A stretch of 64,000 bases of DNA, from contig NZ_JAILXZ010000001.1 of NCBI RefSeq assembly GCF_020179475.1, positions 1,550,001 through 1,614,000 of the forward strand, written 5' to 3'. The position numbers were made by a program, and so were the translations under genes. The DNA is from Novosphingobium huizhouense. Its GTDB lineage: Bacteria; Pseudomonadota; Alphaproteobacteria; Sphingomonadales; Sphingomonadaceae. Within the stretch, counting starts at the first letter, position 1; every line of letters starts with the position of its first letter. The notes beneath the pieces were generated by a model, which worked only from the letters and a program-made list of their open reading frames with translations, had not been told where the DNA came from and did not search any database. Of the stretch, positions 46,744 through 58,377 are shown piece after piece.

Positions 46744-46769
46744 GCCCATGCGAGAAATTGCGTATGGGC
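46744..46769. promoter_or_regulatory. 26-bp operator-like inverted repeat (copy 1)
   Basis: GCCCATGCG, 8 bases, CGTATGGGC: the arms are complementary at 8 of 9 positions. The right arm and spacing are repeated exactly at 50362-50387. It lies 55-80 bases before the small HTH-like gene and about 140 before the divergent TonB receptor gene. Probable target of the LuxR-type regulator encoded in the same operon; this is inferred from position. Confidence 0.6.
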
Positions 46770-46822
46770 GGTGCCGCGCTGCGGCATAATTTCGCGTGCA
46801 CCGCATCATCAGAAGAGGACCC

Positions 46823-47026
46823 ATGCGCGCGCAGCGACTCACTCACCTTGAACCGGACATCGTGGCGAAGATGCGTTCGGTCATCACCTGCCAGAAGCCC
46901 GAAGTGATCCAGACCCATTTCGGCATCGGGCTCAATACCTGGGTCAAGCTGCGCGAAGGCAAGGCGATCCGCCACTCGGTCGCGGAGCGGCTGATGCAGC
47001 GCCTGCAGCGCGACCAGCTGATCTGA
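46823..47026 (+). CDS. 67-residue helix-turn-helix-like protein
   Basis: Small basic protein read from MRAQRLTHLEPD; an in-frame ATG nine codons upstream is possible. Residues 27-60 (EVIQTHFGIGLNTWVKLREG and KAIRHSVAERLMQRL) have the spacing of a helix-turn-helix with a Trp-containing recognition segment. A single Cys lies in ITCQK. It is the first gene before a histidine kinase and LuxR-type regulator. The 152-base gap to the kinase leaves co-transcription open. I do not recognise a named family. A DNA-binding accessory factor of the two-component system is a fair guess. Confidence 0.7.
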   Translation: MRAQRLTHLEPDIVAKMRSVITCQKPEVIQTHFGIGLNTWVKLREGKAIRHSVAERLMQRLQRDQLI

Positions 47027-47178
47027 CGGACCGTTGAGCAGGCAGCCGCGATCCGGGCGAACCGCCAAGGGAGCCGCGGCGCCTGCGACGGCAGGGGCTT
47101 GAAGCCCGCCGCCTTGCAGTGCACAATGGCCGTGTCGGCGTCGGTCAACCCACGGCGCGCAGGGTCCACATCATAAAA

Positions 47179-48759
47179 ATGCAGACGGCGTTGGAGAGGG
47201 GTCCGGCGCAAGGCCGAGAGCCCCCGCACGGTTCACCATGGAACACGCTTGCCGTGCGCGCCGATCGGGCGCGGGCGGCGTTGCGACGCCTCTGGCGCGG
47301 GCCCGCGGCCGCCGCTCCGCGCCCGCCGCTGATCGCCGAGCTCGAGCGCGCGCGCGACGTCGCCGAGGCGGCGAGCGCGGCCAAGAGCCGCTACCTCGCC
47401 AACGTCAGCCACGAGCTCCGCTCGCCGCTCAACGCGATCTACGGCTATGCCCAGCTGATCGAGCGCGGCTCGGGGGTCGACCCGCGCGAGGCGGCCAAGG
47501 TGATCCGCCGCAGCGCCGAGCACCTCACCGACCTCGTCGAGGGGCTGCTCGACATCTCGCTGGTCGAGAACGGCGTCAGCCGCGTCGCCAGCGACATCGT
47601 GCGGCTGCCCGCGTTCCTCGACCAGCTCGCGCGGATGTTCGCGCCCGCGGCCGACGCCAAGGGCCTGTCGTTCGACCTCGACCTGCCCGAGCGGCTGCCC
47701 GAGTTCGTGCGCACCGACCAGAAGCGGCTGCGCCAGGTGCTGATCAACCTGATCAGCAACGCGATCAAGTTCACCGACGCGGGTTCGGTCACGCTGCGCC
47801 TGCGCTGCACCGGCGAAGTCACCCGCTTCGAGGTCGAGGACACCGGGCCCGGCATCGCGCCCGCCGACCGCGAGCGGGTGTTCGCGCCGTTCGAGCGCGG
47901 CGAGGACGCGGACGGGCGCGGCAGCGGCTTCGGCCTCGGCCTCGCCATCACGCGCGCCATCGTCCAGATCCTCGGCGGCGACATCGCGATCGTCGACGCG
48001 CCGCGCGGAGGCGCCATGTTCCGGGTATCGCTGCACCTGCCGCAAGTGCGCGTGGCGGGCGCGGGCAAGCCCGATCTTGGCCGCATCGTCGGCCACGCGG
48101 GGCCGCGCCGGCAGATCCTCGCGGTCGACGACGACGTGCGCCAGCTCTCGTTCGTGCGCCAGGCGCTCGAGGACGCGGGCTTCGATGTCGCGGTCGCGCC
48201 CGACGGCGACACCGCGATCGCGCTGTGCGCGGCGCGCAGCTTCGATCTCGTGCTGCTCGACGTGCAGATGGGCGCGCGCAACGGCTGGTCCACCGCGCGC
48301 CACCTGCGCAGCGTCAACGGCCGGGCGCTGAAGATCGTGATGCTCTCGGCCAACGCCCACGAACGCCACGGCCCGGCCGGCGACGACGAGGAGCAGGCCC
48401 ACGACCAGTTCCTGCTGAAGCCGGTCGAGATCGGCGAGCTGATCGACACGATCGGTCGCCAGCTCGGCCTGCAATGGCTGCGCGAGGGCGCGGCGCCGGC
48501 GCGCGCGGGCGATACGGGCGGGGGCGAAAGCGGCGGGGGCGAAGGCGGCGGGGGCGCGGGGGGCCTTCCCGAAGCGGCGCTCGCCCATGTCGGCAGGTTG
48601 CGCGACCTCGTGCGGATTGGCCACGTGCGCGGGATCGAGGCGGAAATCCGCGCGCTCGAACAGGCCGCACCCGAATGCGCGGCGCTCGCCGGCACGCTCT
48701 ACGCCTGCCTCGACCGCTTCGACCTCGCCGCGCTGTCGCGCAAGCTGGAAGGATTGTGA
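47179..48759 (+). CDS. Soluble hybrid histidine kinase (HisKA-HATPase-REC)
   Basis: 526 residues from the ATG before QTALERG. No membrane span and only ~60 residues precede the kinase core, so there is no recognisable sensor domain. The phosphoacceptor is His78 in SHELRSPLNAIYGYAQ. HATPase boxes: LINLISNAIKFTD (N), VEDTGPGIAP (G1), GSGFGLGLAIT (G2). A receiver domain follows at ~312-430 with Asp in FDLVLLDVQMG and Lys in FLLKPVE. A Gly/Glu-rich linker encoded by a simple repeat (48511-48563) leads to a ~60-residue helical tail. It may sense cytoplasmically or through partners. The response regulator gene starts 4 bases later. Confidence 0.94.
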   Translation: MQTALERGPAQGREPPHGSPWNTLAVRADRARAALRRLWRGPAAAAPRPPLIAELERARDVAEAASAAKSRYLANVSHELRSPLNAIYGYAQLIERGSGVDPREAAKVIRRSAEHLTDLVEGLLDISLVENGVSRVASDIVRLPAFLDQLARMFAPAADAKGLSFDLDLPERLPEFVRTDQKRLRQVLINLISNAIKFTDAGSVTLRLRCTGEVTRFEVEDTGPGIAPADRERVFAPFERGEDADGRGSGFGLGLAITRAIVQILGGDIAIVDAPRGGAMFRVSLHLPQVRVAGAGKPDLGRIVGHAGPRRQILAVDDDVRQLSFVRQALEDAGFDVAVAPDGDTAIALCAARSFDLVLLDVQMGARNGWSTARHLRSVNGRALKIVMLSANAHERHGPAGDDEEQAHDQFLLKPVEIGELIDTIGRQLGLQWLREGAAPARAGDTGGGESGGGEGGGGAGGLPEAALAHVGRLRDLVRIGHVRGIEAEIRALEQAAPECAALAGTLYACLDRFDLAALSRKLEGL

Positions 48760-48763
48760 TTTC

Positions 48764-49684
48764 GTGACCGAGGATCTTCTCCAGCGCCGCGACACCGTGC
48801 TGGTGGTCGACGACGAGCCCAATTCGCTGCGGCTGCTGACCGACACGCTGGAAGCCGGCGGCATCCAGGTGCTGGTCGCCACCTCGGGCGGGGCGGCGCT
48901 CGACCTGCTCGGCCATGTCGTGCCCGACCTGGTGCTTATGGATGCGGTGATGCCGGGCATCGACGGCTTCGAGACGACCGCGCGGATCAAGGCCAACCCG
49001 CTGACCGCGCACGTGCCGGTGATCTTCATGACCGGGCTGACCGAAAGCGAGCACGTGATCGAGGGCTTCGAGGTCGGCGGCGTCGACTACGTGAGGAAGC
49101 CGGTCAACGTCCACGAGTTGCTGGCCCGCGTGCGCGTCCACCTAGGCCATGCGCGCGCGGTGCAGGCGAGCACGGCGAGCCTCGACGCCACGGGGCGGCT
49201 GATGATGGCCACCGACACGCGCGGCTTCCTGCTGTGGTGCACGCCGCTCGCCGAACAGGCGATCAACCGCCTCTCGCCCGGGTGGAACCGCGACCAGGCC
49301 GAACTGCCCGTCGAACTGCGCCATTCGGTCGAGCGGCTGCTGACCCGCGACGCGCAAGGGGCGAGCCTGCGCATCGAGCAGGGCGACGGCGCGCTCGAAC
49401 TGGTGCTGATCGCGCATTACCGCGAGAACGAAGTGCTGATCCGCCTGAACGAGCTCAACCCGCACGTCGATGCGGCGCGGCTGCAGAGCAAGCTGGGGCT
49501 GACCGAGCGTGAGGCCGAGGTGCTGCTGTGGATCAGCTACGGCAAGTCCAACGCCGACATCAGCGAAGTGCTGACGATATCCCCGCGCACCGTGCAGAAG
49601 CACCTCGAGCGGATCTACGAGAAGCTGGGCGTGGAAACCCGGGCGGCGGCGGCGGCGATCGCGATCAAGGTGATCGCACCCTGA
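48764..49684 (+). CDS. Response regulator with LuxR-type DNA-binding domain
   Basis: 306 residues from a GTG start 4 bases after the kinase stop. The receiver domain has the acidic pair in VVDDEPN, the phosphoacceptor Asp60 in LVLMDAVMPG and Lys in YVRKPVN. A ~100-residue middle region (RLMMATDTRGFLLWCTPLAEQ) follows. It may be a degenerate PAS-like spacer. The C-terminal GerE/LuxR HTH is LGLTEREAEVLLWISYGKSN and ISPRTVQKHLERIYEKLGVE. It is probably phosphorylated by the preceding hybrid kinase and binds the 26-bp elements at 46.75 and 50.37 kb (inference). Confidence 0.95.
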   Translation: MTEDLLQRRDTVLVVDDEPNSLRLLTDTLEAGGIQVLVATSGGAALDLLGHVVPDLVLMDAVMPGIDGFETTARIKANPLTAHVPVIFMTGLTESEHVIEGFEVGGVDYVRKPVNVHELLARVRVHLGHARAVQASTASLDATGRLMMATDTRGFLLWCTPLAEQAINRLSPGWNRDQAELPVELRHSVERLLTRDAQGASLRIEQGDGALELVLIAHYRENEVLIRLNELNPHVDAARLQSKLGLTEREAEVLLWISYGKSNADISEVLTISPRTVQKHLERIYEKLGVETRAAAAAIAIKVIAP

Positions 49685-49724
49685 TCGCCGGCCGGCCCGC
49701 CTGGCGCCGCCCGGGCAGGGGAAC

Positions 49725-50270
49725 TCACTTCTTCTTGGCGGCGATCCCTTCGATCTCGATCAGGAAGTAGGGGCCGGCGAGCGCGGCGACCTGAAAGGTC
49801 GAGCGCGCGACCGTGGTCGGGTTCTCGGCGGTCTTGAAGAACTGCTTGAAGCCTTCGTTGGCGCCGGCGAAGTCCATGTGGCCGAGCTTGGGATCGGCCG
49901 CGACGAACAGCGTCAGCTTGACGAGGTCGGCCATCGTGTAGCCGCGCGCCTCGAGCAGCGCCTTGATCTTGGTGAGCACGCTGATCGTCTGCGTCTTGGT
50001 GTCGCCCAGATCATCGACCGACTTGACGTCGGCGAAGGTCTTCTTGGGATCGACGGGCGAGGCGAGCTGGCCCGAAAGGAAGATGATATCGGTGCCCGCC
50101 TTCACGTCGGCGGCATCGAGAATCAGCGCCTGCGGGTTCGACTGGATCTTGGTGACCTGCGCCTGCGCGGCGCCGAGCGGGGCGAGCAGGGCGACGGCGG
50201 CGGTGGCGGAAAGCGCGAGGGCACGGGCGAGAGCAGGGGCGGCGATCCGGTTACCGGTGATGAAGCGCAT
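49725..50270 (-). CDS. Exported RidA (YjgF/YER057c/UK114) family protein
   Basis: 181 residues. A long signal peptide is present (ALARALALSATAAVALLAPL, ending GAAQAQ), unusual because RidA proteins are mostly cytosolic. The RidA fold follows: DIIFLSGQLASPVD, QTISVLTKIKALLEARGYTMADLVKLTLFV and PTTVARSTFQVAALAGPYFLIEIEGIA. The Arg in VARSTFQV corresponds to the active-site Arg of deaminases that hydrolyse reactive enamines and imines. It is convergent with the response regulator gene and divergent from a TonB receptor. Location in the periplasm would match the Tat-exported amine oxidase 5.5 kb away. Confidence 0.9.
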   Translation of the reverse strand: MRFITGNRIAAPALARALALSATAAVALLAPLGAAQAQVTKIQSNPQALILDAADVKAGTDIIFLSGQLASPVDPKKTFADVKSVDDLGDTKTQTISVLTKIKALLEARGYTMADLVKLTLFVAADPKLGHMDFAGANEGFKQFFKTAENPTTVARSTFQVAALAGPYFLIEIEGIAAKKK

Positions 50271-50361
50271 GGGCAGTCCTTGGCTGGTCGTGGCGTGACG
50301 GGAGCAGGACGGGCGGCACGACCCTTCCGGCAGGGCTCACCCTAAAGCGCGTGCGGGCCCA

Positions 50362-50387
50362 GGTGATACGACAATCTGCGTATGGGC
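50362..50387. promoter_or_regulatory. 26-bp operator-like element (copy 2)
   Basis: GGTGATACG, 8 bases, CGTATGGGC. The right arm is identical to copy 1, the spacer matches at 5 of 8 positions and the inner ATRCG of the left arm is kept, so ATACG and CGTAT still form an inverted repeat. It lies between the exported RidA gene (about 90 bases from its start) and the TonB receptor gene (about 160 bases from its start). Confidence 0.6.
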
Positions 50388-50548
50388 AAGTCCCCCGCTT
50401 TGCCGTCTCTGCCGGAAACATCGTGCAAAAATTTCACAACACGCGCGAAACACCAAGGGGTCGGCAGCGCGGGCGCAGGAAGCCCGACGGACACGAACCC
50501 CGATCGAGAGCGGATGCCGGGAGCGACACGTTCAATGGGGGTCTATTC

Positions 50549-53101
50549 ATGTCGCCACTGTCCAAAGCTGCCCTGATTTCGCTCCTTGCCTCGACCGCGC
50601 TTCCGACCGCGGCGATGGCGCAGGAAGCGCCCGCCGCCGACGAACTGCCGTCGGACATCATCGTCACCGGCACCCGCGTGACCGGCATGCGCGCCGCCGA
50701 CAGCGCCGCGCCGGTGCAGGTCGTGGGCACCCAGGCGATGGCCAACGTCGGCCAGCAGGACCTGACGCAGGTGCTGGCGCAGAGCCTGCCGAGCCTCAAC
50801 TTCCAGGCTTTCGGCGGCGACACCGCCAACCTCACGCTGACCGCCGCGCTGCGCGGGCTTTCGCCCAACGACACGCTGGTGCTGGTCAACGGCAAGCGCC
50901 GCCACTTCACCGCCAACCTCGCGGTGCTGGGCGGCTCGCCCTACTCGGGCGCGGCGACCACCGACCTCAGCTTCATTCCAACCAATTCGATCGGCCGCAT
51001 CGAAATCCTCCAGGACGGCGCCGCGGCGCAGTACGGTTCGGACGCGATTGCGGGCGTGGTCAACATCATCCTCAAGGACCAGTCCGAAGGCGGCCTGTTC
51101 ACCGCCACCGGCGGCCAATACTACGAAGGCGACGGCAAGACCTTCTCGACCGCGCTCAACATGGGCTTCAAGCTCGGCGACAGCGGCTTCGTCAACGTGA
51201 CCGGCGAGTACAAGTTCCACGACTATACCCAGCGCGGCGGCTGCGACCGGCGCTACCTGACGCTCGACTGCAAGACCCGCACCGACATCAATCCGATCGA
51301 TGCGGCGGGCGTCGAGGCGAACCCGTTCTATCCGCGCGTGAACACGATCAACGGCGATGCCAAGTACAGCCTGTACAACTTCGTGCTCAACGCCGGCTAC
51401 GACTTCTCGGATGCGGTCTCGGCCTATGCCTTCGGCAGCTACGGCAAGCGCAAGGCCTATGCCTACGAGAACTATCGCCGCGCCACGCGCATCTCGGGCA
51501 CGACCAGCGAGGGCGAAAAGGTCTATCCGCTGCCGGCCGGGTTCAACCCGCAGGAGCACCTCGACGAGGAAGACTTCTCGCTGACCGGCGGGCTCAAGGG
51601 CACGGTCTCGGGCTGGGTCTGGGACCTGTCGCTGACCTATGGCCGCGATGCGGTCGCGCTCTACACGCTCGATTCCGCCAACCCGACGATCTTCGCCCAG
51701 CAGCAGTCGGTAAACCCCGATCCGATCTCGTTGCAGCGCAACTTCTACGACGGCACGCTGGTCAACAGCGAGTGGGCGGTCGAAGCCGGCGTGACCAAGG
51801 ACTTCGAAGTCGGCATGGCCAAGCCGCTGACGCTGGCGTTCGGCGGCCAGTGGCGCAAGGACACCTACGCGATCCAGTCGGGCGAGTTCGCCTCGTGGTT
51901 CGGTGGCGGCGGCCAGTCCTATCCGGGCTTTGCCCCGACCGACGCCGGCTCCTACAGCCGCAAGGCCTGGGGCGCCTACGTCGACCTCGCGATGGACCCG
52001 GTCGAAGGCCTGCACCTCGACCTCGCCGGCCGCTACGAGCACTACTCCGACTTCGGCAAGGTGTGGAACGGCAAGTTCACGGGCCGCTACGACTTCAGCC
52101 CCGCCTTCGGCATCCGCGGCACCGTGTCGAACGGCTTCCGCGCGCCGACGCTCGCCGAATCCTACTACTCGTCGGTCAACGTCGGCCCGGGTTCGACCTT
52201 CGGCCAGCTGCCGCCGAACTCCAGCGCCGCGACGGTGCTCGGTTTCGCGCCGCTCAAGCCCGAAAAGGCGACCAGCTTCTCGGCCGGCTTCGTCGCGCAC
52301 CCGCTGTCCAACCTGCAGATCACGGTCGATGCCTACCAGATCAAGCTGAAGAAGCGCATCGTGCCTTCGGCGGCGATCTTCGGTTCGCTCGGCAGCGACA
52401 TCGTCTCGCAGGCGGTCATCGACGCGTTGATCGCGCGCGGCGTCAGCCTTGCCGACGCGACCAGCTACGCCGGCATCAACATCTTCACCAACGGCGCTGA
52501 CACCCGCACCCGCGGCGTCGAAGCGACGGTGGACTACACCAGCGACTTCGGCGACGGGGCGAAGGCCAACTGGACGCTGGGCTTCAACTACAACCAGACC
52601 AAGATCGAGAAGATCTATCCGCTGCCGGCAGCGGTGGTGAACACCGCCTTCAGCCAGACCAACCTGCTCGATCCCAACTCGATCGACGGGCTGACCACCG
52701 CGACGCCGCGGGTCAAGATCATCGCCAACGCGCTGCTCACGTTCGGTGACTTTTCGGTCAACCTGCGCGAATCGATCTATGGCGTGACGCACCAGCGCAC
52801 CAGCTTCTCGGGCAGCGGCTATGGCGCGCCGGGCGACGGCAGCGGCTATACCGTGCTGCGGATCGGCACCAGCGCGATCACCGACCTCAACCTCGGCTAC
52901 AAGATCACGCCCAAGATCCGCTTCGACGTCGGCGCGAACAACCTGTTCGACAAGAAGGCGCCGACCGTGCCGCTGGTGGATCACCCGTCGGGATCGAAGC
53001 GCCCGGCAAACGGCGCGAACGTCTACAATCCGCCGATCACCTTCACCCCGTGGGGCATCAACGGTGGCTACTACTATGCCCGTGCAACCTTCAATTTCTG
53101 A
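50549..53101 (+). CDS. TonB-dependent outer-membrane receptor
   Basis: 850 residues. The signal peptide is [20 protein letters not shown], cut before Q. The TonB-box region reads SDIIVTGTRVTGM. The plug has TQVLAQSLPSLNFQAFGG, LNG-like NDTLVLVNGKRRHFTAN and GRIEILQDGAAAQYGSDAIAGVV, the group often annotated as catecholate/ferric or organic-substrate receptor. The barrel ends YYYARATFNF. A 26-bp operator-like element lies about 160 bases before the start. It probably brings the substrate of the oxidative enzymes encoded downstream across the outer membrane. Confidence 0.95.
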   Translation: MSPLSKAALISLLASTALPTAAMAQEAPAADELPSDIIVTGTRVTGMRAADSAAPVQVVGTQAMANVGQQDLTQVLAQSLPSLNFQAFGGDTANLTLTAALRGLSPNDTLVLVNGKRRHFTANLAVLGGSPYSGAATTDLSFIPTNSIGRIEILQDGAAAQYGSDAIAGVVNIILKDQSEGGLFTATGGQYYEGDGKTFSTALNMGFKLGDSGFVNVTGEYKFHDYTQRGGCDRRYLTLDCKTRTDINPIDAAGVEANPFYPRVNTINGDAKYSLYNFVLNAGYDFSDAVSAYAFGSYGKRKAYAYENYRRATRISGTTSEGEKVYPLPAGFNPQEHLDEEDFSLTGGLKGTVSGWVWDLSLTYGRDAVALYTLDSANPTIFAQQQSVNPDPISLQRNFYDGTLVNSEWAVEAGVTKDFEVGMAKPLTLAFGGQWRKDTYAIQSGEFASWFGGGGQSYPGFAPTDAGSYSRKAWGAYVDLAMDPVEGLHLDLAGRYEHYSDFGKVWNGKFTGRYDFSPAFGIRGTVSNGFRAPTLAESYYSSVNVGPGSTFGQLPPNSSAATVLGFAPLKPEKATSFSAGFVAHPLSNLQITVDAYQIKLKKRIVPSAAIFGSLGSDIVSQAVIDALIARGVSLADATSYAGINIFTNGADTRTRGVEATVDYTSDFGDGAKANWTLGFNYNQTKIEKIYPLPAAVVNTAFSQTNLLDPNSIDGLTTATPRVKIIANALLTFGDFSVNLRESIYGVTHQRTSFSGSGYGAPGDGSGYTVLRIGTSAITDLNLGYKITPKIRFDVGANNLFDKKAPTVPLVDHPSGSKRPANGANVYNPPITFTPWGINGGYYYARATFNF

Positions 53102-53238
53102 CGGTTGCCGATGACGGCGGCGCCCCCTTGCACCGGCCTGGCGCGGGCGGGGGGGCGCGGTCCTTCGGGCCGGGGCGCGCGTCGCCCCGGTCTCTTCCGG
53201 ATCGCTGCGATCCGGTTCCCTTTTCCTGACGAAGTGTC

Positions 53239-55203
53239 ATGCTCGCCGCGATGAACGATCCCCTCGACCAGGCCGCCAAGGATCTGGGGACACGGCCCGA
53301 GGCCGCCGAGCGGACCGCGCGCGAGCTGGTCCGGCGCAATCCCGCCGATCCGCGCCCGCGCCTGATCCTCGCTTCGGCGCTGCGCCGGCTGGGCCGCGCG
53401 GGCGAGGCGCTGCCGCTGTTGATCGAACTGGCGCGCGCCTATCCCAAAGCCGCGCGCACGCGCTACGAGCTGGGGCTGGCGCTCTGCGCGGTCGGTCGCG
53501 CGGGCGAGGGCGAGCAGCAGCTCGACGCCGCCGTGGCGCTCGATCCCAACCATGCCGAGGCCTGGGCGGCAATAGCCGACCGCGCTTTCGCCCGCGGCGA
53601 TGCGGAAGCCGAACGCCGCGCCCGCGCCGCGCTGGCGCGGCTCGATGCCGGCCACCCCGAACTCGGCCGGGCGGCGGAACTCGTCGCGCTCGGCCGCCAT
53701 GGCGAGGCCGATCCGATCCTGCGGCGCTTCTGCCTCGCCAACCCCAACCATGCCGAAGCCGCGCGATTGATGGCGGCGTGCCATGTCGCCAACCGCACCG
53801 TCCATGCCGCCGAGACGCTGCTGCGCCATGCGCTGACCATCGAACCCGGCTCGGCGCGCATCCGCTTCGATCTCGCGCACGCGCTGTTCGCCGCGCGCCT
53901 TGCCGAACAGGCGCTGGCCGAGCTTGCCCCGCTGCTCGCGGCGGAGCCGGCCAACCCCGCCTACCTCAACCTCCAGGCCGCCTGCCTCGGCCTGCTCGGG
54001 GACGACCGCGCCGCCGAGGCGATCAATGCCGAGCTTGCCGCGGCTTTCCCAGAGAACGCGAGCGTTGCCGTCAACCACGGCCATGCCGCGCGCACCGCGG
54101 GTCTGCGCGACAAGGCGATCGCCGCCTATCGCCGCGCAACGCAGCTCAGCCCCAAGGCGGGCGAGGCGTGGTGGGGGCTCGCCAACCTCAAGATCGGGGC
54201 GATGGGCGAGAGCGACGAGGCGCAGATGCGCGCGCTGCTCGCCGGATCGCTCCCCGACGACGACCGCATGCGCATCGAATATGCGCTCGGTCGCCGGCTC
54301 GAGGACGCGGGCGAGGCCGGGGAAGCCTTCGCGCATTACGCCAGGGGCGCGGCGCTGGCGCGCGCCAAGTTCGGCGGCGAGACCCGCGACTATGCCGCCG
54401 AGGCCGAGGCGGTCACCGCGCTCTACTCCGCGGAGTTCCTGGCTGCGCGCGCCGGGCAGGGCGCGGCCGACGATGCGCCGATCTTCGTCGTCGGGCTGCC
54501 GCGCTCGGGCTCGACGCTGGTCGAGCAGATCCTCGCCAGCCATCCCGCGATCGAGGGGACGATGGAGCTGCCCTACATCGGCAGCCTCGTCGGCCGGATC
54601 GAGCGCGAGGGCGGGCCGGCGCGGATCGCGGCCGCATCCCCGGAGGAGTTGCGTGGCTGGGGCGAGGAGTACCTTGCCCGCACGCAGGTCCATCGTCGGC
54701 TGGGCCGGGCCCGGTTCATCGACAAGATGCCCAACAATTTCCGGCACATCGGCCTGATCCGGCTGATCCTGCCCAACGCGCGGATCGTCGACGTGCGGCG
54801 CAATCCGATGGCCGCGTGCTTCTCGGGCTATAAGCAGCTCTTCGCCGAAGGGCAGGAGTTCTCATACGACCTTGGCGATCTGGGCGCCTACTATCGCCAA
54901 TACCTTGCCATCGTCCGCCATTTCCATGCCGCAGCGCCCGGCGCGGTGCACACGCTGGTCTACGAGGACCTCGTTGAGGACACCGAGGGCGAGGTGCGCC
55001 GCCTGCTCGATGCAGTGGGCCTGCCGTTCGACCCGGCGACCTTGCGCTTCTTCGAGAACGACCGCGCGGTGCGCACGGTCAGTTCCGAGCAGGTGCGCCA
55101 GCCGATCTACCGCGCCGGACTCGATCAATGGCGCAAGTTCGAACCGTTCCTCGCGCCGCTGTCGCAGGCGCTGGGGGATGCGCGCGAGGGGTGGCGCGCG
55201 TGA
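53239..55203 (+). CDS. TPR repeat-sulfotransferase fusion protein
   Basis: 654 residues. Residues ~1-330 consist of TPR-like helical repeats rich in Ala/Leu/Arg (for example ELARAYPKAARTRYELGLAL and AVALDPNHAEAWAAIADRAF). From ~410 comes a sulfotransferase domain with the PAPS phosphosulfate loop FVVGLPRSGSTLVEQIL and the 3'-phosphate motif region RIVDVRRNPMAACFSGYKQL, plus HTLVYEDLVEDTEGEVRRLL. No signal peptide, so cytoplasmic. TPR-sulfotransferases are frequent in sphingomonads and often lie beside TonB receptors; targets are unknown. A second ATG four codons on is possible. The cytochrome gene follows after 28 bases. Confidence 0.9.
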   Translation: MLAAMNDPLDQAAKDLGTRPEAAERTARELVRRNPADPRPRLILASALRRLGRAGEALPLLIELARAYPKAARTRYELGLALCAVGRAGEGEQQLDAAVALDPNHAEAWAAIADRAFARGDAEAERRARAALARLDAGHPELGRAAELVALGRHGEADPILRRFCLANPNHAEAARLMAACHVANRTVHAAETLLRHALTIEPGSARIRFDLAHALFAARLAEQALAELAPLLAAEPANPAYLNLQAACLGLLGDDRAAEAINAELAAAFPENASVAVNHGHAARTAGLRDKAIAAYRRATQLSPKAGEAWWGLANLKIGAMGESDEAQMRALLAGSLPDDDRMRIEYALGRRLEDAGEAGEAFAHYARGAALARAKFGGETRDYAAEAEAVTALYSAEFLAARAGQGAADDAPIFVVGLPRSGSTLVEQILASHPAIEGTMELPYIGSLVGRIEREGGPARIAAASPEELRGWGEEYLARTQVHRRLGRARFIDKMPNNFRHIGLIRLILPNARIVDVRRNPMAACFSGYKQLFAEGQEFSYDLGDLGAYYRQYLAIVRHFHAAAPGAVHTLVYEDLVEDTEGEVRRLLDAVGLPFDPATLRFFENDRAVRTVSSEQVRQPIYRAGLDQWRKFEPFLAPLSQALGDAREGWRA

Positions 55204-55231
55204 CGGGCCCATTCACAGCCGAGAGTATCCG

Positions 55232-55687
55232 ATGAACAAGACGATCAGGGTTGCCGTGCTGGCGCTGGCCGGCGCGACCTTTGCCGCAGTGGCGTGCCTT
55301 GCCAGCCCCGGCTTCGCTCAGGACCGGCCGGGGCCGGGCGGGGCGACGGTGGAAGTGTCGAGCGAGGGGCAGGAGGTCTATGAGCAGATCTGCCAGGCCT
55401 GCCACATGGCCGACGCCAAGGGCGGCGGCGAGCCCGGCGCGATGATCCCCGCGCTCGCCGGCAACAAGAACCTTGCCGACAAGGACTACCCGATCATCGT
55501 GGTGATGAAGGGCCGCGGCGGCATGCCGTGGTTCAACGGCGTGCTGACCAAGGAGCAGATCGCCGCGGTGATCACCTACGTGCGCGGCCACTTCAACGAC
55601 TACCACGATCCGGTGACCGTCGCCGACATCGACCGCATCGTCGCGACGAACCCGCCCGTGCCCGAGTGCAACACCTGCGGCCACTGA
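55232..55687 (+). CDS. Periplasmic class I cytochrome c
   Basis: 151 residues. The signal peptide (IRVAVLALAGATFAAVACLASPGFA) directs it to the periplasm. One haem site CQACH follows (YEQICQACHMAD). The axial Met is probably in GRGGMPWFNG, and the helix EQIAAVITYVRGHFND closes the fold. The last residues (ECNTCGH) look like a broken haem motif and may form a disulfide. It lies 56 bases before a Tat-exported flavin amine oxidase. A dedicated electron acceptor for that enzyme is likely, as known for the NicA2-CycN pair in Pseudomonas. Confidence 0.94.
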   Translation: MNKTIRVAVLALAGATFAAVACLASPGFAQDRPGPGGATVEVSSEGQEVYEQICQACHMADAKGGGEPGAMIPALAGNKNLADKDYPIIVVMKGRGGMPWFNGVLTKEQIAAVITYVRGHFNDYHDPVTVADIDRIVATNPPVPECNTCGH

Positions 55688-55743
55688 AGCCGCCGCTCGC
55701 CAACGCTTTCCAGTTCTCCCGATCCGACCACGAAGGGATTGCA

Positions 55744-57333
55744 ATGCTCGACCAGTTCACCCCGCCGACCCGCCGCCAGCTGCTGACGATGATCGGCAAG
55801 GCGGGCGGCGCCGCCGCGCTCTACCAGGCGATGACCGTGCTCGGCCACGCCAAGGACAGCCAGTTCACCGGCCCGCCCAAGCTCTCGGGCGCCAAGCCGG
55901 GGGCGAGCGTGCTGGTGCTGGGCGCAGGGCTTGCCGGGATGCTCGCCGCCTACGAGCTGACCAAGGCGGGCTACAAGGTCCAGATCCTCGAATTCCAGGG
56001 CCGCGCCGGCGGGCGCAACTATACCGTGCGCGGCGGCGACACGATCACCGAGATCGGTTCGAAGCAGGAGGTGAGCTTTGCTCCGGGCAACTACCTTAAC
56101 CCGGGGCCATGGCGCATTCCCTACCACCACCGCACCGTGCTGCATTACTGCAAGGAGCTGGGGGTCGAGCTCGAGCCGTTCCTGCAGATCAACCACAACG
56201 CGCTGATCCACAACAAGAAGGCGTTTGGCGGCAAGCCGCAGCCCTATCGCGACCTGATGGTCGACTGGAAGGGTCACGTTTCCGAGCTGCTGGGCAAGTC
56301 GCTCAACGCCGGCGCGCTCGACACCACCGTCACGCCTGAGGACAAGGCCAAGCTGCTCGAGGCGATGCGCGGCTGGGGCGTGCTCGACAAGGACATGAAG
56401 TACACCAAGAGCGACCATGTCGGCGAACAGCGCGGCTGGGAGCGGCCGCCGGGCGGCGGGGTCAACGGCGCGCCGATCCCCAACGATCCGTTCAGCCTGA
56501 CCGAGACGCTCGACAGCGGCATCTGGCAGTCGCTCGGCTTCTATGCCGAGCACGTGATGCAGACGACGATGTTCCAGCCCAAGGGCGGCATGGATCACAT
56601 CGGCAAGGGCTTCCAGGCCAAGGTCGGCAAGCTGATCCGCTTCAACACGCGCGTCTCGAAGATCGCGCAGGACGAGCGCGGCGTCACCGCCAGCTGGACC
56701 GACACCAAGACCGGCCAGACCGGCGAGACCCATGCCGACTGGATGGTCTGCACGATCCCCGCGCCGGTGCTCAACCAGATCGACTTCCAGGCGAGCCCGG
56801 AGAAGAAGGCGGCGATCCGCGCGCTGCCTTATGGCAACTCGGTCAAGATCGGGCTCGAGATGAAGCGCCGCTTCTGGGAGACCGACTATGCCATCTACGG
56901 CGGCATCTCGTTCACCGATCAGGCCATCTCGCTGATCTCGTATCCCAGCGCGGGCTGCTTCAGCGATGGGCCGGCGGTGCTGCTCGGCGCCTATCCGTTC
57001 GGGCCGGGCGCCTACATGCTGGCCGGCATGACCCCGGAAAAGCGCATCCAGGCCGCGCTCGACCAGGGATCGGTGTTCCATCCGGCCGAGTACAAGGCCG
57101 AGTTCCTGTCGGGCGCGAGCGTCGCCTGGAACCGCATGCCGTGGATCCTCGGCTGCTGCGCCGCCTGGACCGAGGAAAGCCGCGCCGCGCACTACCAGAA
57201 CCTCGTTTCGATGGAGGGCCGCATCGTGCTCGCGGGCGAACATTGCTCGTACTACGGCTGCTGGCAGGAGGGCGCGCTGCTGTCCTCGATCGACGCGATC
57301 ACCCGCCTGCACCAGAAGGCTTCGGCCGCCTGA
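55744..57333 (+). CDS. Tat-exported flavin monoamine oxidase family oxidoreductase
   Basis: 529 residues. A twin-arginine signal (TRRQLLTMIGKAGGAAAL) predicts folded export to the periplasm. The FAD Rossmann motif is VLVLGAGLAGMLAAYELTKA and the next strand ends ILEFQGRAGGRNYTVRGG. The C-terminal FAD motif is RIVLAGEHCSYYGCWQEGAL. The middle carries the substrate domain with several Trp/Tyr. Family members oxidise primary, secondary or cyclic amines, some as dehydrogenases passing electrons to cytochrome c. The preceding cytochrome gene and an exported RidA in the cluster support the latter. The substrate is unknown. Confidence 0.93.
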   Translation: MLDQFTPPTRRQLLTMIGKAGGAAALYQAMTVLGHAKDSQFTGPPKLSGAKPGASVLVLGAGLAGMLAAYELTKAGYKVQILEFQGRAGGRNYTVRGGDTITEIGSKQEVSFAPGNYLNPGPWRIPYHHRTVLHYCKELGVELEPFLQINHNALIHNKKAFGGKPQPYRDLMVDWKGHVSELLGKSLNAGALDTTVTPEDKAKLLEAMRGWGVLDKDMKYTKSDHVGEQRGWERPPGGGVNGAPIPNDPFSLTETLDSGIWQSLGFYAEHVMQTTMFQPKGGMDHIGKGFQAKVGKLIRFNTRVSKIAQDERGVTASWTDTKTGQTGETHADWMVCTIPAPVLNQIDFQASPEKKAAIRALPYGNSVKIGLEMKRRFWETDYAIYGGISFTDQAISLISYPSAGCFSDGPAVLLGAYPFGPGAYMLAGMTPEKRIQAALDQGSVFHPAEYKAEFLSGASVAWNRMPWILGCCAAWTEESRAAHYQNLVSMEGRIVLAGEHCSYYGCWQEGALLSSIDAITRLHQKASAA

Positions 57334-57462
57334 GCGCGGCCGCGACGATGAAGCGGGGCACCGGCGCGGACCTTATTCGTATGCGATGAGGTCCCGCGCC
57401 GTTCGCATCGGCGGCGCTTGCTGGCATGGCCGGCGGGTTCCACCGATGCGAAAGGCGTCCCG

Positions 57463-58377
57463 ATGTCCGAATTGCCGCTCCCGCCCGCCGACCGCCCCCT
57501 GGGGCGCAGCGGCATTGCGATCTCGTCGCTGGGCTGGGGAATGTGGCGACTGACGGCGGCGGGGCTGGACGCCGCCGGGGTCGCGCGACTGGTCGAGGGC
57601 GTGCTCGACGCCGGGGTGACCCTGCTCGACACCGCCGACATCTACGGCTTCGATGGCAAGGACGGGTTCGGCGAGGCCGAGGCGCTGTTGGGGCAGGCGC
57701 TGGCGCTCGCGCCGTCCTTGCGCGGCCGGATGGTGCTGGCGACCAAGGGCGGGATCATGCCGCCGCTGCCCTACGACCAGTCGCGGGCCTATCTCGCCGG
57801 CGCGATCGACGCTTCGCTGCGGCGGCTGCGCACCGACCGGATCGACCTCTACCAGATCCACCGCCCCGACATCCTTGCCCATCCGCAGGACGTGGCGCGC
57901 GTGCTCGACGATGCGGTGCGGGCGGGCAAGATCCGCAGCCTGGGCGTCTCCAACTTCACCCCGGCGCAGATCGCCGCACTGGCGCACTTCCTCGATGCGC
58001 CGCTCGTCTCGACCCAGCCCGAGATCAGTCCCCTGCGCATCGAGCCGCTGGAGAACGGCGAAATGGACCAGGCGATGGTCATGGACCTCGCGCCGCTCGC
58101 CTGGTCGCCGCTCGGCGGGGGCAGCCTGTTCGATCCGCAGACCGCGCGCGAGAAGGCGGTCGCCGCCGCGCTCGACGTGGTGGCGCAGGCGCAAGGGGTG
58201 TCGCGCAGCAGCGCGGCGTTCAGCTGGCTGATGGCGCATCCCGCGGGGATCGTGCCGATCGTCGGATCGCAGAAGCTGGCGCGGGTGGTCGAGGCGACCG
58301 AGGCGCTCAAGGTGCGCTGGACCCGCGCGGAGTGGTACGCGGTGCTGGTGGCGAGCCGGGGCGCGCCGCTTCCGTAA
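57463..58377 (+). CDS. Aldo/keto reductase
   Basis: 304 residues with a (beta/alpha)8 barrel. The catalytic set is visible: Asp and Tyr in LLDTADIYGFDG, Lys in MVLATKGGIMPP and His in DLYQIHRPDILAHP. NADPH-binding motifs near the end are GIVPIVGSQKLARVVEATEA. The N terminus (DRPLGRSGIAISSLGWGMWR) resembles the YdhF-like oxidoreductases of the family. The ATG chosen is preceded by a 129-base spacer containing ATGCGA/TCGCAT elements at 57381, 57403 and 57446. It may reduce an aldehyde or ketone made by the amine oxidase, but that link is only positional. Confidence 0.93.
   Translation: MSELPLPPADRPLGRSGIAISSLGWGMWRLTAAGLDAAGVARLVEGVLDAGVTLLDTADIYGFDGKDGFGEAEALLGQALALAPSLRGRMVLATKGGIMPPLPYDQSRAYLAGAIDASLRRLRTDRIDLYQIHRPDILAHPQDVARVLDDAVRAGKIRSLGVSNFTPAQIAALAHFLDAPLVSTQPEISPLRIEPLENGEMDQAMVMDLAPLAWSPLGGGSLFDPQTAREKAVAAALDVVAQAQGVSRSSAAFSWLMAHPAGIVPIVGSQKLARVVEATEALKVRWTRAEWYAVLVASRGAPLP

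Follow-up and report, generated by a model that had tools for sequence, protein, structure and literature searches.

A candidate periplasmic L-amino-acid deamination cluster in Novosphingobium huizhouense and its probable link to an organic-nitrogen two-component regulator

Results

Genes and candidate operators at the locus

We analyzed a stretch of 64,000 nucleotides from Novosphingobium huizhouense (contig NZ_JAILXZ010000001.1; G000:C11:1550001-1614000), called the window below, in which genes for a flavin enzyme, a cytochrome c and a Rid-family protein lie next to a two-component regulator. Coordinates count within the window unless contig C11 is named; signal peptides, Sec and Tat alike, were judged by eye, and the Tat motif also by sequence pattern. 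On the plus strand, the block opens with a gene for a small conserved protein, probably an XRE-like helix-turn-helix (HTH) protein as judged from an alignment, an AlphaFold model and weak fold matches (46823..47026). It is followed by a hybrid histidine kinase, HisKA-HATPase_c-REC (47179..48759, with GTG 47119 as a possible alternative start; Pfam, hydropathy and a ten-member alignment), and a LuxR-type response regulator with REC and GerE domains (48764..49684; Pfam). The Rid gene lies on the minus strand (49725..50270; PF01042) and encodes a protein with a signal-like N-terminus that is predicted to be exported; we refer to this paralogue as RidA1. The plus strand then carries a TonB-dependent receptor (about 50549..53101; PF07715 and PF00593), a TPR and sulfotransferase protein (Sulfotransfer_3; 53239..55203; PF13469, E 6.5e-45), a single-haem cytochrome c with one CxxCH and a Sec-like signal (55232..55687; PF13442, E 2.3e-12) and an L-amino acid oxidase/dehydrogenase (LAAO) with an RR motif, predicted to be Tat-exported (55744..57333; PF01593, E 9e-54; match to PDB 2jae). 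Only 56 bases separate the end of the cytochrome c gene from the oxidase start on the same strand. Because the Rid gene is on the minus strand and diverges from the receptor gene, it stands outside the cytochrome c/oxidase transcription unit.

Two strandless candidate operators were found in the block. One, TGCG-N8-CGTA (46749..46764), is one base off the consensus and lies 58 bp before the small HTH gene, hence before the regulator operon. The other, TACG-N8-CGTA (50367..50382), sits in the divergent promoter between RidA1 and the TonB receptor and scored 30.0 with the position weight matrix (PWM) described below (28.5 when left out of the training set).

The original prediction had described a Tat-type flavin amine oxidase, a cytochrome c with a signal peptide 56 bases ahead of it, a RidA protein with a signal peptide, a TonB receptor and a hybrid kinase/LuxR regulator operon with a small HTH-like protein, the product of the small open reading frame (ORF) at 46823. 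Every part that it named was present. The TPR-sulfotransferase gene had been overlooked, and nothing had been said about the minus strand of the Rid gene.

The flavin enzyme resembles the Rhodococcus L-amino acid oxidase

The best sequence match of the flavin enzyme was the Rhodococcus opacus LAAO (PDB 2jae, E 9.2e-80, residues 52-528). An AlphaFold model (mean pLDDT 84.1) aligned with the same protein at Z 53.3 and a root-mean-square deviation of 2.2 over 473 residues with 34% identity (VIA-align); the scores were lower for snake-venom LAAO (Z 39.7) and for the best monoamine oxidase (Z 35.9). Arg124, counted from the Met at 55744 and lying in NPGPWRIP, aligned with an Arg of the Rhodococcus enzyme and was invariant in 15/15 aligned relatives. 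This Arg would be the one that binds the substrate carboxylate. The motif NxGPxR[IL]P was found in 79/80 named LAAO loci, which are the best 80 of 580 related loci, and a twin-Arg motif was found in 75 of the 80 by pattern and in the other 5 by eye. Among the matches listed, the nearest named relatives were from Novosphingobium (81-83% identity), and the enzymes of five Gluconacetobacter loci were 56-61% identical to that of the window. Neither NicA2 nor nicotine oxidoreductase appeared as a label, labels being all that was compared, among the PDB matches listed (60 of 104) or the 50 fold-search entries. Since the closest relative in both sequence and fold is the Rhodococcus LAAO, the window enzyme is likely of this type and L-amino acids, rather than amines generally, are its likely substrates. 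The reading as a generic amine oxidase was therefore rejected. The gene was detected in 33/246 genomes of the order (E<=1e-60), and at least two copies stood in one cluster at L042, L045, L046, L048, L049 and L224.

Cytochrome c and Rid genes accompany the oxidase

A cytochrome c gene was located within 300 bp of the LAAO gene in 79 of the 80 named loci, and 77 of those 79 proteins carried CxxCH. A Rid gene related to that of the window lay within 7 kb in 39/80, a count that includes several incomplete loci. In the 246-genome sample of the order, a Rid protein with a signal-like N-terminus was found in 24 genomes (E<=1e-20), 23 of which also carried LAAO, and 22 of the 29 such genes were within 10 kb of an LAAO gene. 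The grouping of oxidase, cytochrome c and Rid is not due to chance. The window cytochrome c ends in PECNTCGH, an additional Cys pair near the C-terminus that is not a CxxCH haem motif.

Arg156 of the Rid protein aligned with Arg105 of E. coli RidA (1qu9) and was kept in 62/63 alignment rows; the exception was a 21%-filled row that is apparently out of frame. Against TIGR00004, the model for RidA proper, the protein scored 51.6 bits and did not reach the cut-off of 106.25, so we call it RidA-like and assign it only to the Rid family. Sphingomonads have two Rid paralogues, the divergent RidA1 and the co-directional RidA2, and in a FastTree phylogeny RidA2 grouped with Rid proteins from Acetobacteraceae and rhizobia whose genes are linked to lao. 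The window genome gave a single Rid match at E<=1e-20, RidA1.

Similar gene sets have been reported. The lao-cccA-ridA cluster of Gluconacetobacter diazotrophicus (GDI2456-2454) has a Tat signal, and its LAAO, cytochrome c and RidA were proposed to cooperate in the periplasm (Rodrigues 2016, PMC5053998). Rid genes cluster with genes for flavin adenine dinucleotide (FAD) amine oxidases, and Rid hydrolyses LAAO imines (Niehaus 2015, PMC4433059). Many cytochrome-linked flavin amine oxidoreductases are dehydrogenases (Akram 2025, PMC12224317). The enzyme trio and its logic are thus already known, and the placing of RidA next to the oxidase, offered as new in the original prediction, was rejected as a novelty in itself given the 2016 Gluconacetobacter precedent with the same hypothesis and the clustering described in 2015. 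We found no paper on LAAO with cytochrome c in Novosphingobium in the open-licence literature, and a search there for flavin amine oxidase together with cytochrome c and RidA also gave none.

The window shares with the G. diazotrophicus cluster a Tat-type, Rhodococcus-like LAAO, a cytochrome c and a Rid gene with the same proposed division of labour in the periplasm, and here too the LAAO and cytochrome c genes are adjacent on one strand (55232-57333). It differs in showing only the divergent RidA1, whereas ridA is in the operon in G. diazotrophicus (the co-directional RidA2 of congeners stood in for it in our comparison), and in adding the TonB receptor, the sulfotransferase and the two-component regulator with its candidate operator. 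As in NicA2/Pnao-CycN and other cytochrome c-using dehydrogenases (PMC12224317, PMC9396064), a Tat-exported flavin amine oxidoreductase is encoded beside a Sec-exported cytochrome c, but the window enzyme best matches L-amino acid oxidases and its use of the cytochrome is putative. Unlike R. opacus LAAO, which it resembles in fold, it has a Tat signal and partner genes for cytochrome c and Rid. The Rid protein is like the imine deaminases of PMC4433059 in its PF01042 domain, its catalytic-type Arg and its gene position beside an amine oxidase, and unlike them in its signal-like N-terminus and its score under the TIGR00004 cut-off.

We asked whether the enzyme could instead be a true oxygen-using LAAO, with the cytochrome c incidental to turnover and the regulator a neighbour persisting by happenstance. 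The nearest solved relative, from Rhodococcus, does bear the name oxidase and has a broad L-amino-acid range (quoted in PMC5053998), and the regulator and the block are separable at one locus, as described below. This seems improbable to us, given that cytochrome c adjoins LAAO in nearly all of the named loci, that a Tat signal with an operonic cytochrome c is a good predictor of a dehydrogenase (Akram 2025, PMC12224317), and that the output of indole-3-acetic acid (IAA) in G. diazotrophicus ccm mutants was about 5% of the wild-type level (Lee 2004, cited in PMC5053998). The periplasmic logic of oxidase, cytochrome c and imine hydrolase that the original prediction had put forward is supported as a predicted scheme.

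The regulator family adjoins ammonia-releasing clusters

The window genome has one regulator of this LuxR family (E<=1e-40). We surveyed 59 regulator loci, the surroundings of 53 relatives and 6 named loci; L046 (G123) and L049 (G030), both LAAO-linked, were outside this tally. The regulator stood beside LAAO/RidA genes in 12 loci, urea/guanidine carboxylase genes in 17 and urease genes in 11, that is, beside an ammonia-releasing cluster in 40/59; a further 5 were at the glgP spot described below and 14 were in other contexts. One of the 12, L195, has RidA and a TonB receptor and no LAAO within its stretch. Pfam confirmed representative carboxylase, allophanate hydrolase, DUF1989 and urease genes beside the regulators. 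About 19 kb is about 0.5% of such a genome, so that by our own arithmetic the number expected by chance is well below one locus of each kind. In G030, the carboxylase operon directly adjoins kinase-regulator-RidA1, with LAAO a few kb beyond.

In a tree of 60 regulators, 13 LAAO/RidA-linked members (the window included), the 5 glgP-spot members and 1 other formed one clade with support 100/100; the placements of L152, a fragment, and of the long-branched L158 are unreliable. In the order sample, a regulator of at least 60% identity and an LAAO of at least 52% occurred together in 5 genomes, the regulator alone in 3 and LAAO alone in 5 (Fisher 1.9e-6).

The carboxylase operons have the gene set of the guanidine/urea carboxylase operons of PMC12186494 (carboxylase, two DUF1989 proteins and allophanate hydrolase), here beside regulator relatives. 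Those operons are under guanidine riboswitch control, whereas our scans of 6 carboxylase stretches, several of them ending short of the upstream end of the operon, and of 1 urease stretch gave no guanidine riboswitch. In L166, where a urease alpha gene stands next to a relative of the regulator, an Rfam match to 5' ureB small RNA (sRNA) (L166:16284-16569 (+), 81.9 bits) runs antisense to that gene.

The small ORF upstream of the kinase is conserved (13 sequences including that of the window, 23 invariant positions). Its AlphaFold model (mean pLDDT 92.5) has four helices; Foldseek matches were weak, with E 0.21 at best, and many were to DNA-binding proteins of the HipB/XRE type; Pfam and NCBIfam scans gave no match. 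Hydropathy analysis showed no clear membrane segment in the window kinase. Hydrophobic N-terminal segments are present in the kinases of L221, L148, L159, L162 and L175 and not in the window copy, which may reflect either loss of the membrane anchor from the window kinase or a misassigned start.

A shared palindrome suggests a link between the cluster and the kinase/LuxR pair

The palindrome TACG-N8-CGTA was common to the divergent RidA1 promoters. The 59 regulator loci contained 28 exact matches against 2.3 expected, of which 12 were the RidA1 promoters of the first sighting and 16 were others; the 71 LAAO loci without an adjacent regulator contained 4 against 2.7 expected. We built a PWM from 15 sites, for which the background maximum was 14.4 over 1.24 Mb. 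The 15 training sites scored 18.7-30.7 in a leave-one-out analysis in which near relatives stay in the training set.

We then compared 21 RidA1 promoters, those of the window and 20 loci. A site was present in 19 (scores 21.1-32.2), and in all 19 the regulator was adjacent or elsewhere in the genome: it is partial at a contig edge in L043 and lies elsewhere in L047 and L160. L039 and L040, the two loci whose promoters lack a site, belong to metagenome-assembled genomes (MAGs) in which the regulator search at E<=1e-40 found none. These two promoters (L039:9300-9530 and L040) keep an apparent half palindrome, CATACGCGACAATTCGC, as if decaying. Five RidA1-like loci (L140-L144) in genomes without the regulator sub-clade had no site either (best score 6.3); G238 and G121, within this set, hold a regulator relative of 51-52% identity. 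The RidA relatives of G244 and G133 were outside the comparison. The site thus occurred in 19/19 loci with the regulator sub-clade and 0/7 without it (p = 1.5e-6), a value that overstates independence because the loci are related to each other; this limits the case for regulation, as does the make-up of the 7 site-less loci, 2 from MAGs and 5 with more distant Rid genes.

The window site at 46749, which is not a training site, scored 22.3. A site before the small HTH gene lay 57-65 bp from the aligned start in 12/13 homologues and at 119 bp in the 13th. The scores of these upstream sites ranged from 7.6 (two) to 22.3 (window), and only 2/1038 control upstream regions reached 9. The shared palindrome and the linkage in several genera support a connection of the cluster with the kinase/LuxR pair, as far as can be judged from genome comparison.

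XRE proteins are also palindrome binders, and this counts for another possibility, that the palindrome is a binding site for the small XRE-like protein or for some unrelated factor and that the kinase/LuxR pair controls a different target here, for example the glgP-side TonB receptor. The near-constant spacing of the best site ahead of the small gene fits this, and two glgP-spot loci, L145 and L146, retain the small-gene site without LAAO. We consider it unlikely: strong sites were found in L041, L044, L110, L159, L165 and L195, where the search for a homologue of the small protein found none, and carboxylase-type regulator loci without the small protein (L172, L177 and L153) still carry sites.

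Further sites for the proposed control by the kinase/LuxR pair were found in the window genome. One (C11:1390283, score 24.0) has on one side the transporter genes of the carboxylase operon, which encode an NMT1-like binding protein and a BPD_transp_1 permease, and on the other a divergent TonB receptor. Another (C11:1109220, score 23.4) lies between the GMP-synthase gene (guaA) and a small ORF, and G178 and G208 have a site in the corresponding position. The third genomic copy of the longer form TACG-N8-CGTATG is the site at 50367. The palindrome between the GMP-synthase gene and the small ORF was seen in three genomes of the genus with scores of 23.2-23.4 (L227:1503, L229:1501 and L238:1503).

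The same chromosomal spot in relatives

The spot occupied by the block is flanked on one side by a glycogen-phosphorylase-family gene and a second TonB receptor and on the other by a zinc-type dehydrogenase, an M20 peptidase, TetR, a Rieske oxygenase and an FAD oxidoreductase (Pfam). The window, L037, L038 and L221 have small HTH-kinase-regulator together with the LAAO block at this spot; L039 and L040 have RidA1-cytochrome c-LAAO without the regulator. In G208, the LAAO block is on a different contig (L160). The order kinase > regulator > RidA1 < recurs outside these flanks in L041, L044, L045, L046, L049, L110, L159 and L162-L165.

An apparently exchangeable receptor-sulfotransferase pair

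In 17 relatives a Rid gene comes after the receptor gene, and these 17 receptors form one clade (one short row was omitted from the tree). The receptors of the window and L037 fall outside it, that of the window being 43-47% identical to its members, and each is followed by a sulfotransferase. L037 and L221 have the TPR-sulfotransferase in the corresponding position, and it was found in no other LAAO locus examined. The receptor-sulfotransferase pair was also found in L222, outside any LAAO block, where nothing matched LAAO, cytochrome c or Rid. By its phylogeny and placement, the pair looks like an exchangeable module, and its exchange, as suggested by comparative genomics, would be new here. 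Our search of the open-licence literature for a TonB receptor with a sulfotransferase in Sphingomonas gave only a sponge-symbiont paper, by title.

The pair might be a separate system inserted in the LAAO promoter region that turns the LAAO operon to a different substrate. It does take the place of the receptor-RidA2 of relatives in the window, L037 and L221, and it stands without recognised LAAO genes in L222. We hold this to be quite improbable, since the palindrome between RidA1 and the new receptor is kept (L037 29.8, L221 30.8, window 30.0), and regulation thus seems to be retained.

A second sulfotransferase gene followed by a TonB-receptor gene lies just past the right end of the window (G000:C11:1616334-1620657; L225:4362-8658). 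The TPR-sulfotransferase is beside the regulator in many carboxylase-type and some other loci (L153, L175, L177, L180-L184 and L186), with a TonB receptor also nearby in L175 and L181.

Neighbouring features

An aldo/keto reductase gene (57418-58377) was tried as a member of the block and dropped, as L037-L040 have no homologue of it in the interval from LAAO to the zinc-type dehydrogenase. Downstream of the block, Rfam matched the suhB/mmgR sRNA (RF00519; 59489-59563 (-), 45.7 bits).

Discussion

From gene content, homology, synteny and the conserved sites with their co-occurrence with the regulator, we think it reasonably probable that the block forms a module for L-amino-acid deamination in the periplasm and is controlled by an organic-nitrogen two-component regulator; the genes probably strip ammonia from amino acids outside the inner membrane. 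The Tat-exported FAD enzyme would take hydride from an L-amino acid to give an imino acid, the adjacent cytochrome c would pass the electrons towards the respiratory chain, and the exported Rid protein would hydrolyse the imine to a 2-oxo acid and ammonium, with the TonB receptor importing a substrate. Together with the small HTH protein, the kinase/LuxR pair may act through TACG-N8-CGTA at the RidA/TonB divergent promoter, ahead of its own operon and, in trans, at the promoter of the urea/guanidine carboxylase transporter. By this shared control, several ammonia-releasing systems could be switched on together. For a broader proposal we find the case evenly balanced: that one undescribed Sphingomonad two-component family couples LAAO, urea/guanidine carboxylation and urea hydrolysis via TACG-N8-CGTA, the single copy in the window species controlling LAAO/RidA/TonB as well as the operon that encodes it, and acting in trans on the carboxylase cluster and guaA.

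A number of further observations weigh against such regulation. LAAO is without a nearby regulator in 72/80 named loci (none at E<1e-100), and G177, G178 and G221 have the regulator (at least 60% identity) with no LAAO at E<=1e-60. At the spot itself, L145 (G178) carries the regulator without an LAAO block, and the regulator there faces the zinc-type dehydrogenase directly. L146, L147, L197 and L199, which keep parts of the same flanks, likewise carry the regulator and lack the LAAO block at this spot. Because either can be present alone at this spot, the regulator and the block are separable. We therefore rejected a regulator exclusively dedicated to the block, as the original prediction had it; the family also adjoins urea/guanidine carboxylase and urease clusters. 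The expectation that the block would be conserved together in relatives was borne out in part: the genes stay together in several Sphingomonad genera and are separable within Novosphingobium. Scored partners were absent from 14/59 regulator loci, two of these stretches being about 4 kb. The urease loci hold few palindromes, none placed at a promoter. Among 10 further carboxylase loci (L246-L255, some stretches incomplete), a clear site at those genes was found only in L252 (15.3) and a weak one (10.7) in the transporter/TonB divergent promoter of L249; the PWM found none at the carboxylase genes of the others. TACG-N8-CGTATG occurs 3 times in the window genome and the backward control pattern also 3 times, so place and symmetry, not number, carry the argument. 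Finally, the sulfotransferase in the LAAO operon has no place in the proposed explanation.

The cluster might serve not to scavenge nitrogen but to make IAA from tryptophan in association with plants. A lao::Tn5 mutant of G. diazotrophicus loses IAA, a tryptophan-to-IAA phenotype (Rodrigues 2016, PMC5053998), so IAA requires lao there, and the Gluconacetobacter enzymes are close relatives of the window LAAO at the identities given above. We regard this role as distinctly unlikely: the recognised other partners of the regulator family release ammonia, and a scan of eight block proteins showed no further IAA step.

With the enzyme trio known, the regulator family and its operator look new, as far as comparative analysis goes; we found no earlier description of the family in the open-licence literature, judged from titles and abstract openings. 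The enzymes themselves represent a known, little-tested route of amino-acid (and auxin) metabolism. The link of the regulator to urea/guanidine carboxylase and urease genes suggests that the role of this route is organic nitrogen scavenging, and TACG-N8-CGTA offers a short DNA site open to direct test. In Sphingomonads, the regulator could be an alternative to guanidine riboswitches for guanidine/urea use.

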